Source: a virus
IMG/VR virus record: IMGVR_UViG_3300037427_001625
Location: 1-21,853 of that record
Length of the DNA stretch: 21,853 nt
Strand: one strand, 5' to 3'
The position numbers and the translations under genes are program-made. Shown here in pieces: positions 3,953 through 21,853 of this stretch. Under the pieces are notes generated by a model. That model was given only the letters and a program-made list of their open reading frames with translations. It ran no database searches and had not been told where the DNA came from. Numbering within the stretch: the stretch's first letter is position 1; every line of letters begins with the position of its first letter.

Positions 3953-4619
3953 AACTCTCGATTTTGTGTTGAATAAATTCCCGAATATATTCTGTGAGTA
4001 GTTTAATGTACTTCTTTTTGTCATACTCCTCATAAACAATAGATTCTCCATTTTCACATGCCATGATGATGACAAGTTTCTTGACGGCAATGCCAGTCAA
4101 TTCATATAACATACAACCGTATGCCATACATTGTACAAAGTAGTGATCGACCCACTTCCTTGGTTTAGGTTTTTTAGATGTCTTAAAATCTATTATGGCT
4201 AATTCGCCATTATACTCTGCGATACAGTCCACAGTACCTGCAATGCCCAGTTCTTTACTATACAGTGAACCTTCTAGAGCATGAACCCTAGATATTTTAT
4301 TTAGTTCACTTTTATAGATCTTAAAAAGCATTTGAGATAAAGGTTGTACCTCTGGCAACTCGTGGTTGTACAGATACGCCTCAGTAAGAGTATGTGTATC
4401 TGTACCACGACTAGTTGCTTGTCTAGTGATGCGATCTGCCTCTGCATCACCCACTTTCTTTCGCCAGTTAACAAATATCTCTTTGTTATGGTGACTTGTT
4501 ACCGAGGTTATGGATACTAATTTAAGTAGTTCGTCTTCATCAGGAACTGAATAATAACGAACACCATCTATAGTTTCCCTCGATAACTTAGGGAGATCCA
4601 GATCGACATGTTCAAACAT
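3942..4619 (-). CDS. PD-(D/E)XK family exonuclease (RecB/Cas4-like fold)
   Basis: The 225-residue protein carries the PD-(D/E)XK nuclease core: a His in GTDTHTLTE (His76), Asp131 in GTVD, the D-x-K triad in IIDFKTSKK (Asp144, Lys146), and a following Gln163/Tyr167 helix. These residues bind Mg2+ and the scissile phosphate in RecB-like nucleases. I do not see the four-cysteine iron-sulfur cluster of Cas4. It probably takes part in DNA recombination or in degradation of host DNA. It begins one base inside the PhoH stop (TAATG), so the two are translationally coupled. It overlaps gp33 by 11 nt. Confidence 0.85.
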   Translation of the reverse strand: MFEHVDLDLPKLSRETIDGVRYYSVPDEDELLKLVSITSVTSHHNKEIFVNWRKKVGDAEADRITRQATSRGTDTHTLTEAYLYNHELPEVQPLSQMLFKIYKSELNKISRVHALEGSLYSKELGIAGTVDCIAEYNGELAIIDFKTSKKPKPRKWVDHYFVQCMAYGCMLYELTGIAVKKLVIIMACENGESIVYEEYDKKKYIKLLTEYIREFIQHKIESYAS

Positions 4620-5377
4620 TACATTGATAAACTATGTTTTGCCATTATGTACTCTTTACAGAGACCAGAACGTACAATATCTTCCATACCAAATTCAATA
4701 AAATCAAATGATGGCATGATTCTAAGGATCTTTGTAAAATCCATGATACCATTACGCTCGTTTGTTTTTGTTAGGTCAGACTGTGAAGCATCTCCACAAA
4801 AACAGATCTTGGTGTTTTCACCAGACCTTGTAATTATACTATCAAGTTCATGATAATTCAAGTTTTGGAACTCATCAACAATAATGATAGCATTGTCTAG
4901 AGTTGTACCTCTAAGAAATGATGTTGACCAAAAACTTATAGTACCTTGAGTTTTTAAGTTACCGTACAACATTTCAAAGTCAGAATCAGTTTCTAACTCA
5001 AACATATACTTCACCATATTCTTGTATGGTATTTGATAAAGTAAGGACTTGTCTTCATGATCGCCAGGAAGAAAACCAATTTCACGAGTAGCAACTAGAG
5101 ATCTAACAATATAGATCTTCTCATAAGGTGTTGTATGATCTAATACATCTGCTAGTGCATTATATAATGTAATAAATGTCTTACCAGTTCCTGCTGCACC
5201 GTAAGCAACAATATTCTGATTATTTTTATAACAACGATACAGATTCTCTTGATTATCTGTCAAAGGTTCGATCTCTCTCATGAGATCTGCATTGATAGGT
5301 TTCTTTCTTCTTCTTTGCTTGGCAGTCATTCCGACTCCAACTGCTTGATCTTCTTTTGTCCTTCTTTTTCTTGCCAT
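4619..5377 (-). CDS. phoH: PhoH-like ATPase
   Basis: The 252-residue protein has a Walker A motif (GAAGTGKT, residues 60-67), a Walker B motif (IIIVDEFQN, about 164-172) and a downstream GDASQSD motif. This is the P-loop layout of PhoH proteins, which resemble the N-terminal half of helicase superfamily 1. PhoH is widespread in marine phages. Its cellular name comes from phosphate starvation, but its biochemical role in phages is unsettled and may concern RNA. The basic N-terminus (KRRTKEDQ, KQRRRKK) could bind nucleic acid. The gene follows the split carbamoyltransferase after 7 nt and is coupled to the nuclease downstream. Confidence 0.93.
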   Translation of the reverse strand: MARKRRTKEDQAVGVGMTAKQRRRKKPINADLMREIEPLTDNQENLYRCYKNNQNIVAYGAAGTGKTFITLYNALADVLDHTTPYEKIYIVRSLVATREIGFLPGDHEDKSLLYQIPYKNMVKYMFELETDSDFEMLYGNLKTQGTISFWSTSFLRGTTLDNAIIIVDEFQNLNYHELDSIITRSGENTKICFCGDASQSDLTKTNERNGIMDFTKILRIMPSFDFIEFGMEDIVRSGLCKEYIMAKHSLSM

Positions 5378-5384
5378 ACTTGGT

Positions 5385-6476
5385 TTATCCGAGGAATAGA
5401 GAGGTTAATGGGTGACGTTGTGTATTATTCAAAAGATGATGCCACACATAAAATGCAGCACCTATAGAAGTACCACCATCATGAGCACATGGATCAACAT
5501 GGAAGTTAATCTCAGGGAACTCCTTAATATAGCGATAATTATTTACACAGTTAAGAAAATAACCGCCAGATAAAACGACATTTTTAGTGCCTGTTTTATC
5601 TAGCAGTTGCTTTATTAATCTGATAGTATGCTTCTTAGATTCCAATTGAACCTTAGCCAGTACATTAGACATGTCCTCAAAGGATACATCAAAAATCTCA
5701 TCATCGTTTTTTGCAAACTCTGGATCAAAATTAGGACAATTTAACACACGTCTACAAGTATCTAGTAAAACATCATTGTCTGTCACCCAAATATCCCCTT
5801 TGGGATCGTAATAGAACCATTCTTCAGGGTGAACCTCTGCTTTACCATAAGGAGATACTCCCATGCCTTCTCCAGCACCACCTAGTCGGCAAATACCACA
5901 AAGTAAATTAAATAATCCACCATTAGATAAACTATGAGTGATAGCAAGTTTATCATTAATTCTTAGAACACTATTATTAAATGTTGTATCATAAAATCCA
6001 TGATGCTTATGAATAGTCTCTATATTATTACCAGAGAAGTAATACATACTTTCTGCTTCTTTCATATCAACAACTGAATTTACAGGTGCTCCTCCCCCAT
6101 CACAAATTAATGCTGCTGCTTCATCAAAGGATGAAGAATAAAATGCACTAGAGGCATGGAAAAGATGATGTTCCTTTAAATAGTGTTCTTCATCATAAGT
6201 TATACCATATAATTTTAAATTCTTTTTGACTTGCTTTATTGTTTTATCATCAGGGCAATTAGTCCACTTATTCTTAACATAAGAACAAAAAATTATATGA
6301 TCTACATGTTTTGTATACTGAAGAATACATGCTAAACATGCCATCTGAGCATCTAATTCCCACTCCTCTTCTTTATTCCTATTCAACCTATCATCTTCAA
6401 GATAATATAATATCTCTCCATCATCTAACAAACAAATAGATGGATGATGTGATACATTAACACCTAAGATAAACAT
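5385..6476 (-). CDS. Carbamoyltransferase N-terminal (ASKHA/Kae1-like) domain as a separate gene
   Basis: The 363-residue product covers only the N-terminal domain of NodU/CmcH/TobZ-type carbamoyltransferases. It has the metal-binding HHLFHA motif (103-108), LICDGGG, GAGEGMGVSPYGKAEVHP, NVVLSGGYFLNCV and CAHDGGTSIGAAF. In this family the Kae1-like domain transfers the carbamoyl group from an adenylate intermediate to a hydroxyl of the acceptor. The protein ends at HPLTSLFLG, where a full-length enzyme passes into its linker, so the break is at a domain boundary and not a random truncation. The missing C-terminal domain is encoded by the gene just upstream in the transcript, overlapping by 13 nt. 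Both halves keep their motifs and probably assemble into one enzyme. The acceptor substrate is unknown. Confidence 0.9.
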   Translation of the reverse strand: MFILGVNVSHHPSICLLDDGEILYYLEDDRLNRNKEEEWELDAQMACLACILQYTKHVDHIIFCSYVKNKWTNCPDDKTIKQVKKNLKLYGITYDEEHYLKEHHLFHASSAFYSSSFDEAAALICDGGGAPVNSVVDMKEAESMYYFSGNNIETIHKHHGFYDTTFNNSVLRINDKLAITHSLSNGGLFNLLCGICRLGGAGEGMGVSPYGKAEVHPEEWFYYDPKGDIWVTDNDVLLDTCRRVLNCPNFDPEFAKNDDEIFDVSFEDMSNVLAKVQLESKKHTIRLIKQLLDKTGTKNVVLSGGYFLNCVNNYRYIKEFPEINFHVDPCAHDGGTSIGAAFYVWHHLLNNTQRHPLTSLFLG

Positions 6477-7057
6477 GATTGACCTGCCACATTAACTTCA
6501 TTATTAATATGAACTATCTTACTCTCCTCTGGTTGATACACATACTCAATAGAAGATTTGTATAACATATCATACGTATCATAAATGGTATGACATATAA
6601 CCTCACCTGCAAGATTGAGTGATGTATTAAACAACATAGGTATACCAGTCTCCTCATAGAAAGTTTTTATAAGGTGATAGTAATGATAGTTCTGCTCCTC
6701 TGTCACTGTTTGAATCCTACATGTTCCATCAACATGTATAACTCCTGGTATCAACTCCTTCTTATCTTCTTTAACAGGTATAGCATACATCATAAAGGGG
6801 GATGATTTAAGAGTCAACATCTCAAACCAATCAGCAGCATACTCCTCAAGAACACTAGCAGCAAATGGTCTCCACCACTGCCTACCTTTAGCATCATTAA
6901 CCTTCTTCTGTGCTTCAGAATCCCTAGGATCATATAGTACAGACCTATTACCTAATGCTCTTGGTCCTGCCTCTGTTCTACCTTGATGTATACAGACAAT
7001 GTTCTTCTTAACTAGAAGATCAACAACATCATCATAAGTTGCCTGAATATGATTCAT
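6464..7057 (-). CDS. Carbamoyltransferase C-terminal (YrdC-like) domain as a separate gene
   Basis: The 197-residue product matches the C-terminal half of the carbamoyltransferase at 14519-16033. Shared motifs are EAGPRALGNRSVL, QWWRPFAASVLEE, IHVDGTCRIQTV and LFNTSLNLAGEVICHT. In TobZ-like enzymes this YrdC-like domain makes carbamoyl adenylate from carbamoyl phosphate and ATP. It starts with its own Met one base inside the stop of the preceding gene (TAATG). It comes before the N-terminal domain gene in the transcript, the reverse of the domain order in a fused protein. I see no frameshift that would restore a fused frame, because the order itself is swapped. Confidence 0.9.
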   Translation of the reverse strand: MNHIQATYDDVVDLLVKKNIVCIHQGRTEAGPRALGNRSVLYDPRDSEAQKKVNDAKGRQWWRPFAASVLEEYAADWFEMLTLKSSPFMMYAIPVKEDKKELIPGVIHVDGTCRIQTVTEEQNYHYYHLIKTFYEETGIPMLFNTSLNLAGEVICHTIYDTYDMLYKSSIEYVYQPEESKIVHINNEVNVAGQSCLS

Positions 7058-7320
7058 TAAGTCTTATTCACTTTATTCATACGACCCTGAATACCACCTG
7101 CCTTCTCTGCCTTCTTAAGAACTTCAGTCCATCCAGGATGTTTATTATGTAACTTATCTCTCCACTCACCAACCTCTCCAACACCAGGACATGTACTTGG
7201 ATCAGAAAAATCTCTAGTCCATTCTGGGTTGTCAACCTTCCATTGATCCCAGTCATGAACACTCATCACAACTTCTTTCTGTTCTCCAGTTGTAGTATTG
7301 ACTACAGGATAAGTTGCCAT
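7057..7320 (-). CDS. Small FmdB-like phage protein
   Basis: The 87-residue protein (start MATYPVVNTTTGEQKEVVMS, end KKAEKAGGIQGRMNKVNKT) resembles small phage proteins often labelled FmdB-like regulatory proteins. These share a T-x-TGE start, a middle stretch like DNPEW, and a C-terminal W-x-x-VLKK segment. The zinc-ribbon cysteine pairs of cellular FmdB are absent; only one Cys is present. A good ribosome site (GGAGAG, 5 nt before the ATG) supports the start. It is directly coupled to the split carbamoyltransferase, with a one-base overlap. The family call is tentative and I infer no function. Confidence 0.55.
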   Translation of the reverse strand: MATYPVVNTTTGEQKEVVMSVHDWDQWKVDNPEWTRDFSDPSTCPGVGEVGEWRDKLHNKHPGWTEVLKKAEKAGGIQGRMNKVNKT

Positions 7321-7639: not shown

Positions 7640-8027
7640 TTGTTTTCCTCATAGGTACTTGTATTGTCCATGACCCACCATCTAGGTCAACCATGTCAAA
7701 GTTCTTCTTAAACTCCTTCTCTCTTTCTTTCTTCTCCTTCTCCATTGTCACATCAATAGATTCAATACTCCTCTCACCATAGTGAGGACGGTTTGGATCT
7801 TTTAGACCCATGTAATCTAGTATCGCACCATCTATCATGTAGTAAAGTGTATCCCAAGTAAGTGTTTCTCTTAGTTGAGATGCAAGTCTATCTATATCAT
7901 TTTTATCAAGATACTCACCAGTTGCTACTGCATTTGAGTAATCTTCATTTTGAGTCAAGAGTTTTGCTCTGATCTCTACCAACTCATTTAAGTTGATAGT
8001 GATTTTTACATCATCATAAATCGCCAT
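7632..8027 (-). CDS. Hypothetical protein (131 aa)
   Basis: The product begins [20 protein letters not shown] and has a Lys/Glu-rich helix near residues 95-108 (MEKEKKEREKEFKKN). It ends in a short beta-like stretch (SWTIQVPMRK). No enzyme motif or membrane segment is visible. AGGA lies about 9 nt upstream of the ATG, inside the end of thyX, which it overlaps by 14 nt. It was not assigned to a family. Confidence 0.7.
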   Translation of the reverse strand: MAIYDDVKITINLNELVEIRAKLLTQNEDYSNAVATGEYLDKNDIDRLASQLRETLTWDTLYYMIDGAILDYMGLKDPNRPHYGERSIESIDVTMEKEKKEREKEFKKNFDMVDLDGGSWTIQVPMRKTNA

Positions 8028-8664
8028 CAGTCCATCCTAATGCTTTAGAAATAATTGGGAACTCACCAACAAAAATGTCACGGATATGTTCAGCGACTTC
8101 TTTGTGCTCCTGCTGTGTTCCATGTCCAGATCGTAGATCAATGTAGTGAATCCAACTACGGACACTACCAGACATGTATAACCTAGTAAGAGTTGCTTGA
8201 GGTAGTACCATTCTAGCACACTCCTTAGCAACACCCTGCTTTAGTAAACTATTATACAAGTCAAGAGCATCATCAAAATGCTTCTCAATAGTTGCCTCCA
8301 TGTATGCTCTATCACGAGGATTAATATCATCAATAGAGTTCTGTCTGTTCTTAGTATCTTGACGACGTAAATCTGGAGTAGGTATACTCAACTGTAGTGC
8401 TGTACTATCAGCATAGCGTTGAGAGAATTGTTGAAAAGTAAAACTTCTATGTCTTAATATCTGAGTAGCAATTGCTAGTGATGTATTAATCTCAACGGTC
8501 ATGAAAGCATGCTCAAAGATGCTCCAATGCTGATGTTTAATACAATACTTAAGAAGACCCTCAAAGGAATCACTCTCTTGGTTCTTGGGGTTGCTCACAC
8601 GAGCACAATATGCAATACTCTTCTCTGCATCAGGAGTGACAGAGACAGGAATAATCTTATTCAT
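8014..8664 (-). CDS. thyX: Flavin-dependent thymidylate synthase
   Basis: ThyX makes dTMP from dUMP using FAD, NADPH and methylene-tetrahydrofolate. The 216-residue protein has the ThyX signature RHRx7S ([11 protein letters not shown], residues 71-81) followed by QRY. It also has the second conserved block [20 protein letters not shown]...SWIHYIDLR. The usual AQ-x-EIR motif near the C-terminus appears as TQQEHKE, a variation worth noting. Length is normal for the family. It overlaps pyrE by 8 nt. ThyX is common in cyanophages and fits raised dTTP demand in phage replication. Confidence 0.96.
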
Positions 8665-21631: not shown

Positions 21632-21853
21632 TTATTCTTTACCTAAGTATAGTGTCTTCAATGGATGTCTGGATGTAGACTTAGTTGCATGATAATAATC
21701 AATCTTTGCAAGTCCAATAGATGTTCCAGCATCAGTGGATATAGGTTCAACATATAGTTTAACACCTTCGGGAAGATGTTTCAAGTACTCATAGTTTGCT
21801 ACACAATTCAAAGCACATCCACCAGTTAATACTAAATTCTTCTCACCTGTAAC
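21632..21853 (-). CDS. Third carbamoyltransferase, end of an N-terminal domain gene (partial)
   Basis: The frame is open to the right edge, so only the last 73 residues are seen. They include NLVLTGGCALNCVANYEYL, then VEPISTDAGTSIG, then RHPLKTLYLGKE and a stop. This matches the end of the split N-domain gene at 5385-6476 (NVVLSGGYFLNCV, GGTSIG, RHPLTSLFLG) motif for motif. It stops at the same domain boundary, so this copy also lacks a fused C-terminal domain. Its partner gene, if any, lies outside the window. Confidence 0.85.
   Translation of the reverse strand, partial: VTGEKNLVLTGGCALNCVANYEYLKHLPEGVKLYVEPISTDAGTSIGLAKIDYYHATKSTSRHPLKTLYLGKE

Follow-up and report, generated by a model that had tools for sequence, protein, structure and literature searches.

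A stretch of DNA of 21,853 nt (IMG/VR virus record IMGVR_UViG_3300037427_001625, positions 1 to 21,853), referred to here in its entirety as the window, carries two adjacent genes that probably encode a two-subunit class III (TobZ/NodU-type) O-carbamoyltransferase, with the gene for the C-terminal half (C) transcribed ahead of that for the N-terminal half (N), an order that is probably a relic of the loss of an upstream N gene. The window is of marine cyanophage origin; this 21.9-kb virus record combines T4-type replication genes with cyanophage-style purM, purN, thyX, bilin reductase and phoH. To our knowledge, the class III carbamoyltransferases characterised so far perform both steps, formation of carbamoyl-AMP and transfer of the carbamoyl group, in one chain, so the hand-over of carbamoyl-AMP is hard to study. 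The phages described here offer what appear to be natural two-chain enzymes, in some cases the sole such enzyme in the genome, and would therefore make docking, channelling and sharing of the activating subunit directly testable.

The pair lies in a packed unit (Table 1): a regulator-like gene (phrog_385), C, N, phoH and an exonuclease gene follow one another, with a 1-nt overlap before C, a 13-nt overlap between C and N, and a 7-nt gap before phoH. The reading of the open reading frames and the Pfam assignments agree with the original prediction that both genes are intact. The C product matches only Carbam_trans_C (PF16861, E 3.4e-56, profile positions 2-162 of 170) and the N product only Carbam_trans_N (PF02543, E 2e-15). 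Aligned to the fused phage family phrog_1601 (528 positions), N covers 1-326 and C covers 355-525, so the split falls at the domain boundary, as had been proposed. The order was also read correctly: the PF16861 gene comes first and the PF02543 gene second, opposite to the fused paralogue in the same window, where N precedes C. The pair consists of two separate genes and is not a permuted single protein.

Table 1. Features of the carbamoyltransferase genes of the window and of their surroundings.
Feature	Position	Strand	Remarks
C-half gene, YrdC-like, predicted carbamoyl-adenylate-forming subunit, 197 aa	6464..7057	-	PF16861; K57/R59 and S146/N148 kept
N-half gene, Kae1-like, predicted carbamoyl-transfer subunit, 363 aa	5385..6476	-	PF02543; H10, H103, H107, D126 and D333 kept
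C/N gene overlap, 13 nt, ATGTTTATCTTAG	6464..6476	-	C stop falls within the conserved ILG motif at the N start
Small regulator-like gene (phrog_385)	7057..7320	-	directly upstream of the C-half gene; 1 nt in common
PhoH-like gene	4619..5377	-	directly downstream of the N-half gene, 7-nt gap; locus marker
thyX (PF02511)	8014..8664	-	marks the upstream side of this same locus in relatives
Fused N-C carbamoyltransferase paralogue, 504 aa	14519..16033	-	N then C (Pfam); usual order; comparison only
Third carbamoyltransferase gene, end only	21632..21853	-	N-half lacking a C domain; PF02543 profile 301-345; truncated by the window edge

The 13-nt overlap suits coupled translation of C and N, and is identical in phages S-RIM44 and Sf-FP1 and in surveyed loci L012-L022, L042, L100 and L140. 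In S-RIM44 (NC_047734, 194454-195542) the annotation puts the N-half start at 194529; the homologous ATG lies 75 nt further upstream, at 194454, and the overlap with C is thereby concealed. The third carbamoyltransferase gene of the window ends after the N domain with HPLKTLYLGKE, comparable to the lone N of phage Sf-FS3.

The direct family of the window genes is that of the phage Nol-like carbamoyltransferases (phrog_1601, fused; phrog_20469, lone C). With the class III enzymes TobZ, GdmN, VtdB and NovN (NodU/CmcH family), the pair has in common the two Pfam domains, the catalytic residues, and the best sequence and fold matches. These enzymes are single chains with N before C, whereas the window carries Carbam_trans_N and Carbam_trans_C on two adjacent genes in the order C-N, and its reading frames do not join the pair into one polypeptide with N before C; we therefore regard the pair as a variant, not as a standard class III member. 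By alignment and numbering, the adenylation residues K443 and S530 of TobZ correspond to K57 and S146 of the C-half, where K57, R59, S146 and N148 form a KxR...SxN motif, one of the two motifs (with HxxH...D) described for TobZ and HypF (PMC9654439). In the N-half, H10 corresponds to the catalytic His H14 of TobZ, and H103, H107, D126 and D333 (two His, two Asp) to the Fe ligands of TobZ and GdmN (in the latter H133, H137, D156 and D333; PMC9633730), the first three being spaced as in GdmN. Thus the claim that both halves keep their catalytic residues holds on full alignment, and in the window genes no catalytic column is altered. The AlphaFold2 model of the N-half alone is confident (pLDDT 91.5, pTM 0.92), shows the Kae1-like fold of TobZ and has TobZ as its top PDB match (E 2.6e-18).

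The same residues are conserved well beyond the window. In a residue table of all dereplicated sequences, K57, R59, M89 and S146 are invariant among the split halves, as are the Fe ligands, which were kept in all split N-halves examined. Of the catalytic residues tested, H10 alone departs from this pattern: it is Asn across one lineage, the downstream N-halves of L006, L088, L113 and L204. By analogy, these N-halves may be slow or altered. An H14N variant of TobZ has been crystallised with carbamoyl adenylate bound (PDB 3vex).

To place the pair among its relatives, we read about 290 loci (labels L with a number) from IMG/VR contigs, deposited phages and bacterial genomes. The simple C-N order occurs in about thirty IMG/VR contigs, and the other layouts seen were C-N-C-N, C-N-C-N-N, C-N-N-C-N, split N-C, N-C-N, NC-N (a lone N after a fused NC) and N by itself. 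Protein searches located the reversed pair in three deposited isolates, S-RIM44 (locus order thyX, C, N, regulator, phoH, exonuclease), Sf-FP1 and S-SCSM1 (C-N-C-N); in deposited genomes the genes bear no more than the annotation of two Nol-like carbamoyltransferases. Counting profile matches across whole records gave exactly one C and one N, that is, the reversed pair and no fused enzyme, in S-RIM44, Sf-FP1 and the L140 record (193-kb IMG/VR); since the pair is the only carbamoyltransferase there, C and N can partner only each other within the phage. Both halves are under purifying selection: in comparisons with near relatives, C has a dN/dS of 0.23-0.48 and N of 0.29-0.42, apart from one N comparison with very low dS that gives 1.08.

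Two reading frames where other phages have one could in principle mean a frameshift, an assembly error or a decaying copy of a fused enzyme, but we give this scarcely any credence: the layout recurs in many independent contigs and in isolates, selection is purifying and the catalytic residues are complete, which excludes artefact and decay, and the reversed order by itself rules out a frameshift as the cause. The original prediction had argued the same from the window itself.

The bacterial relatives have a different architecture. All 80 bacterial loci nearest to the C-halves encode fused enzymes save L222, an N-C split, and L287, which has an extra C-fragment; in a set of 150 genomes from one phylum, a single match out of about 135 lay in a reading frame shorter than 260 aa. 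A cellular origin of the split was rejected because the sampled bacterial enzymes are nearly all fused. Both exceptions come from bacterial metagenome-assembled genomes: in L287 a 146-aa C-only reading frame adjoins a fused enzyme, and the two frames of L222 share a long overlap, this split being probably a frameshift.

We used quick SH-aLRT trees, in which many of the IMG/VR records are fragments, to trace the history of the two halves. In the C-half tree, 13 further C-halves from C-N pairs cluster with that of the window (SH-aLRT 95), and the window N-half falls in a 31-row clade made up of split N-halves only, whether from C-N, N-C or lone genes (SH-aLRT 100), in line with the independent two-gene lineage that had been put forward as one possibility. 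The fused paralogue of the window is 28% and 41% identical to the split halves and sits on a long separate branch; descent of the pair from this distant paralogue was accordingly rejected.

The origin of the reversed order is best seen at the locus between thyX and phoH, which in relatives holds NC-N, N-C-N, C-N-C-N, C-N or N alone. At this same locus L113 has NC-N, L088 has N-C-N, and L006 and L204 have C-N; the N-halves of L006 and L204 form one group with the downstream N of L113 and L088 (SH-aLRT 100), and on this placement the four are orthologous. Because relatives have N-C-N and NC-N at the same locus, loss of the upstream N would yield C-N without any inversion. At the ancestral locus two enzymes would have stood side by side (N-C or fused NC, then a second N): a second N would have been gained beside a split or fused enzyme, and the first N then lost, leaving C-N. 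This gain-then-loss account is the simplest, its direction being inferred with the fused bacterial enzymes as outgroup, and the C-N order is best explained as a historical relic and not as an inversion. The order need not mean the rearrangement that had been suggested as one possibility: the reversed order is real, but loss of an upstream N suffices to produce it. As a series of stages in order reversal by gain and loss instead of inversion, the thyX-phoH locus is unusually complete.

A single origin of C-N was rejected for the N-halves, where holding N of L006 and L204 with the window clade gave p-AU 0.00015 in a 37-row test. The C-half tree does not reject a single origin (p=0.39), so the N genes of L006 and L204 may instead have been swapped. 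The tree places the two N genes of L190 (N-C-N) as sisters (SH-aLRT 99), and by this evidence the locus is a duplication of N, the copies flanking a single C. In L155-L158, an N-C pair is separated from a second N-half by thyX and a small reading frame, indicating that the locus has been reshuffled around thyX.

How would the two subunits work? In TobZ, HypF and GdmN, carbamoyl-AMP arises in the YrdC-like part and transfer of the carbamoyl group is the task of the Kae1-like part, the two being connected by a channel (PMC9654439, PMC9633730). By homology, the YrdC-like C subunit would convert ATP and carbamoyl phosphate to carbamoyl-AMP, and the Kae1-like N subunit, with its Fe-binding HxxxH...D...D site, would move the carbamoyl group onto an acceptor hydroxyl. 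The two probably dock, so that the labile intermediate would be handed straight from one to the other, as happens within TobZ between its fused domains. Physical pairing is favoured by gene adjacency, by the overlap, and by the correlated distances of C and N: for 16 C-N pairs the two distance matrices correlate with r=0.79, and 0/5000 permutations reached as high a value, though the correlation may mirror shared phage ancestry only.

A joined C-N read-through model of the relative L041 folds domain by domain (pLDDT 87), but its pTM of 0.70 gives no confident arrangement of the two domains. The want of a confident arrangement in this model would also suit a system with no docking at all, in which carbamoyl-AMP set free by C would reach N by diffusion, as in the t6A pathway, where two separate proteins, TsaC and TsaD, share a labile adenylate (PMC9654439). 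We consider this unlikely, because carbamoyl-AMP is channelled in TobZ and HypF (PMC9654439), and because the conserved adjacency, the gene overlap and the mirrored trees of C and N suggest a close partnership.

HypF also has its YrdC-like part before its Kae1-like part (PMC9654439), and in Foldseek the joined C-N model aligns with it over both domains in that order. HypF, however, is one chain with acylphosphatase and zinc domains and acts on HypE, whereas the window proteins match PF16861 and PF02543 only, and Pfam found no acylphosphatase or zinc-finger domain in them. In t6A synthesis the adenylate-forming and transferring halves (TsaC/Sua5 and TsaD/Kae1) are likewise separate proteins, with KxR...SxN and HxxH...D motifs (PMC9654439); they belong to other families, with other substrates, and handle threonylcarbamoyl instead of carbamoyl, and the window proteins have no Sua5/YciO/YrdC or TsaD Pfam match at E<=0.001.

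A nearby thymidylate synthase gene might point to DNA modification, since an enzyme of this family from a sewage phage, found by MetaGPA, carbamoylates 5-hydroxymethylcytosine (5hmC) and needs ATP and carbamoyl phosphate (PMC8670742). TobZ positions 408, 421 and 423 are linked to the DNA-modifying group (PMC8670742). The window has G36 and R38 at TobZ G421 and R423, the ordinary state, where the 5hmC enzyme has C and T; position 408 is I23 in the window and W in TobZ. The 5hmC enzyme is moreover a single 63-kDa chain, and the neighbouring synthase is ThyX (PF02511), not a ThyA-type (PF00303) hydroxymethylase. A 5hmC-type function was rejected because the group residues do not fit, and we hold it to be very improbable.

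The pair is also unlike the enzymes of pyrimidine synthesis. A gene of cyanophage S-MS29 (OQ504980) has been named pyrBI, aspartate carbamoyltransferase (PMC10436341), and one of S-SZBM1 has been given a pyrimidine role (PMC9146016). The carbamoyltransferase of S-MS29 has its matches in the TobZ-type halves of the window, and the window genes have no PyrB-type Pfam domain (aspartate/ornithine carbamoyltransferase) at E<=0.001; the label used in these two papers is thus unsupported by the domains of the window genes and of the S-MS29 homologue. We found no description of a split or reversed class III enzyme in the literature: where papers mention carbamoyltransferases of cyanophages, they describe neither the split nor the reversed order, and the S-SCSM1 paper does not mention its carbamoyltransferases. 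The recurrent C-N layout is apparently an undescribed variant of a known enzyme type, present but unremarked in annotated GenBank genomes. The original prediction had allowed that the order might be a general cyanophage layout already on record; it is indeed general in one cyanophage group, in deposited genomes and many IMG/VR contigs, but we found no paper that discusses it.

Copy numbers bear on whether C and N always work one to one. In profile counts over whole records, N outnumbers C in at least 6 of 22 records (3 N and 1 C in the L064 record, 4 N and 3 C in S-SSM7) and C outnumbers N in none (0/22), so one C may serve several N. It is possible, though less likely than not, that C acts in trans in this way, as a shared maker of carbamoyl-AMP for acceptor-specific N subunits, lone N genes included, much as TsaC feeds TsaD. 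Such sharing would account for N genes that stand without their own C beside fused or split enzymes (NC-N, N-C-N, C-N-C-N-N and C-N-N-C-N), for lone N genes that retain all Fe ligands, and for the locus of L132, L134 and L138 (thyX, regulator, N, phoH), where C is absent while an N-half that is close kin to that of the window is intact. The extra N genes could, however, have a new function, and the contigs of L132, L134 and L138 are short, so that their C may sit elsewhere. More broadly, and no less tentatively, the cyanophages may use a modular system of one diffusible or exchangeable activating subunit and several acceptor-specific transfer subunits; the orders NC-N, N-C-N, C-N and N would then record how transfer subunits were repeatedly gained and lost around the activating one.

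Also at odds with a shared C is the C-terminal end of these lone N-halves. An LxxLYLG tail is kept in the N-halves of C-N pairs and precedes the C domain in fused enzymes, but is absent from the lone N of L132, L134 and L138. This tail may be part of the contact with C.
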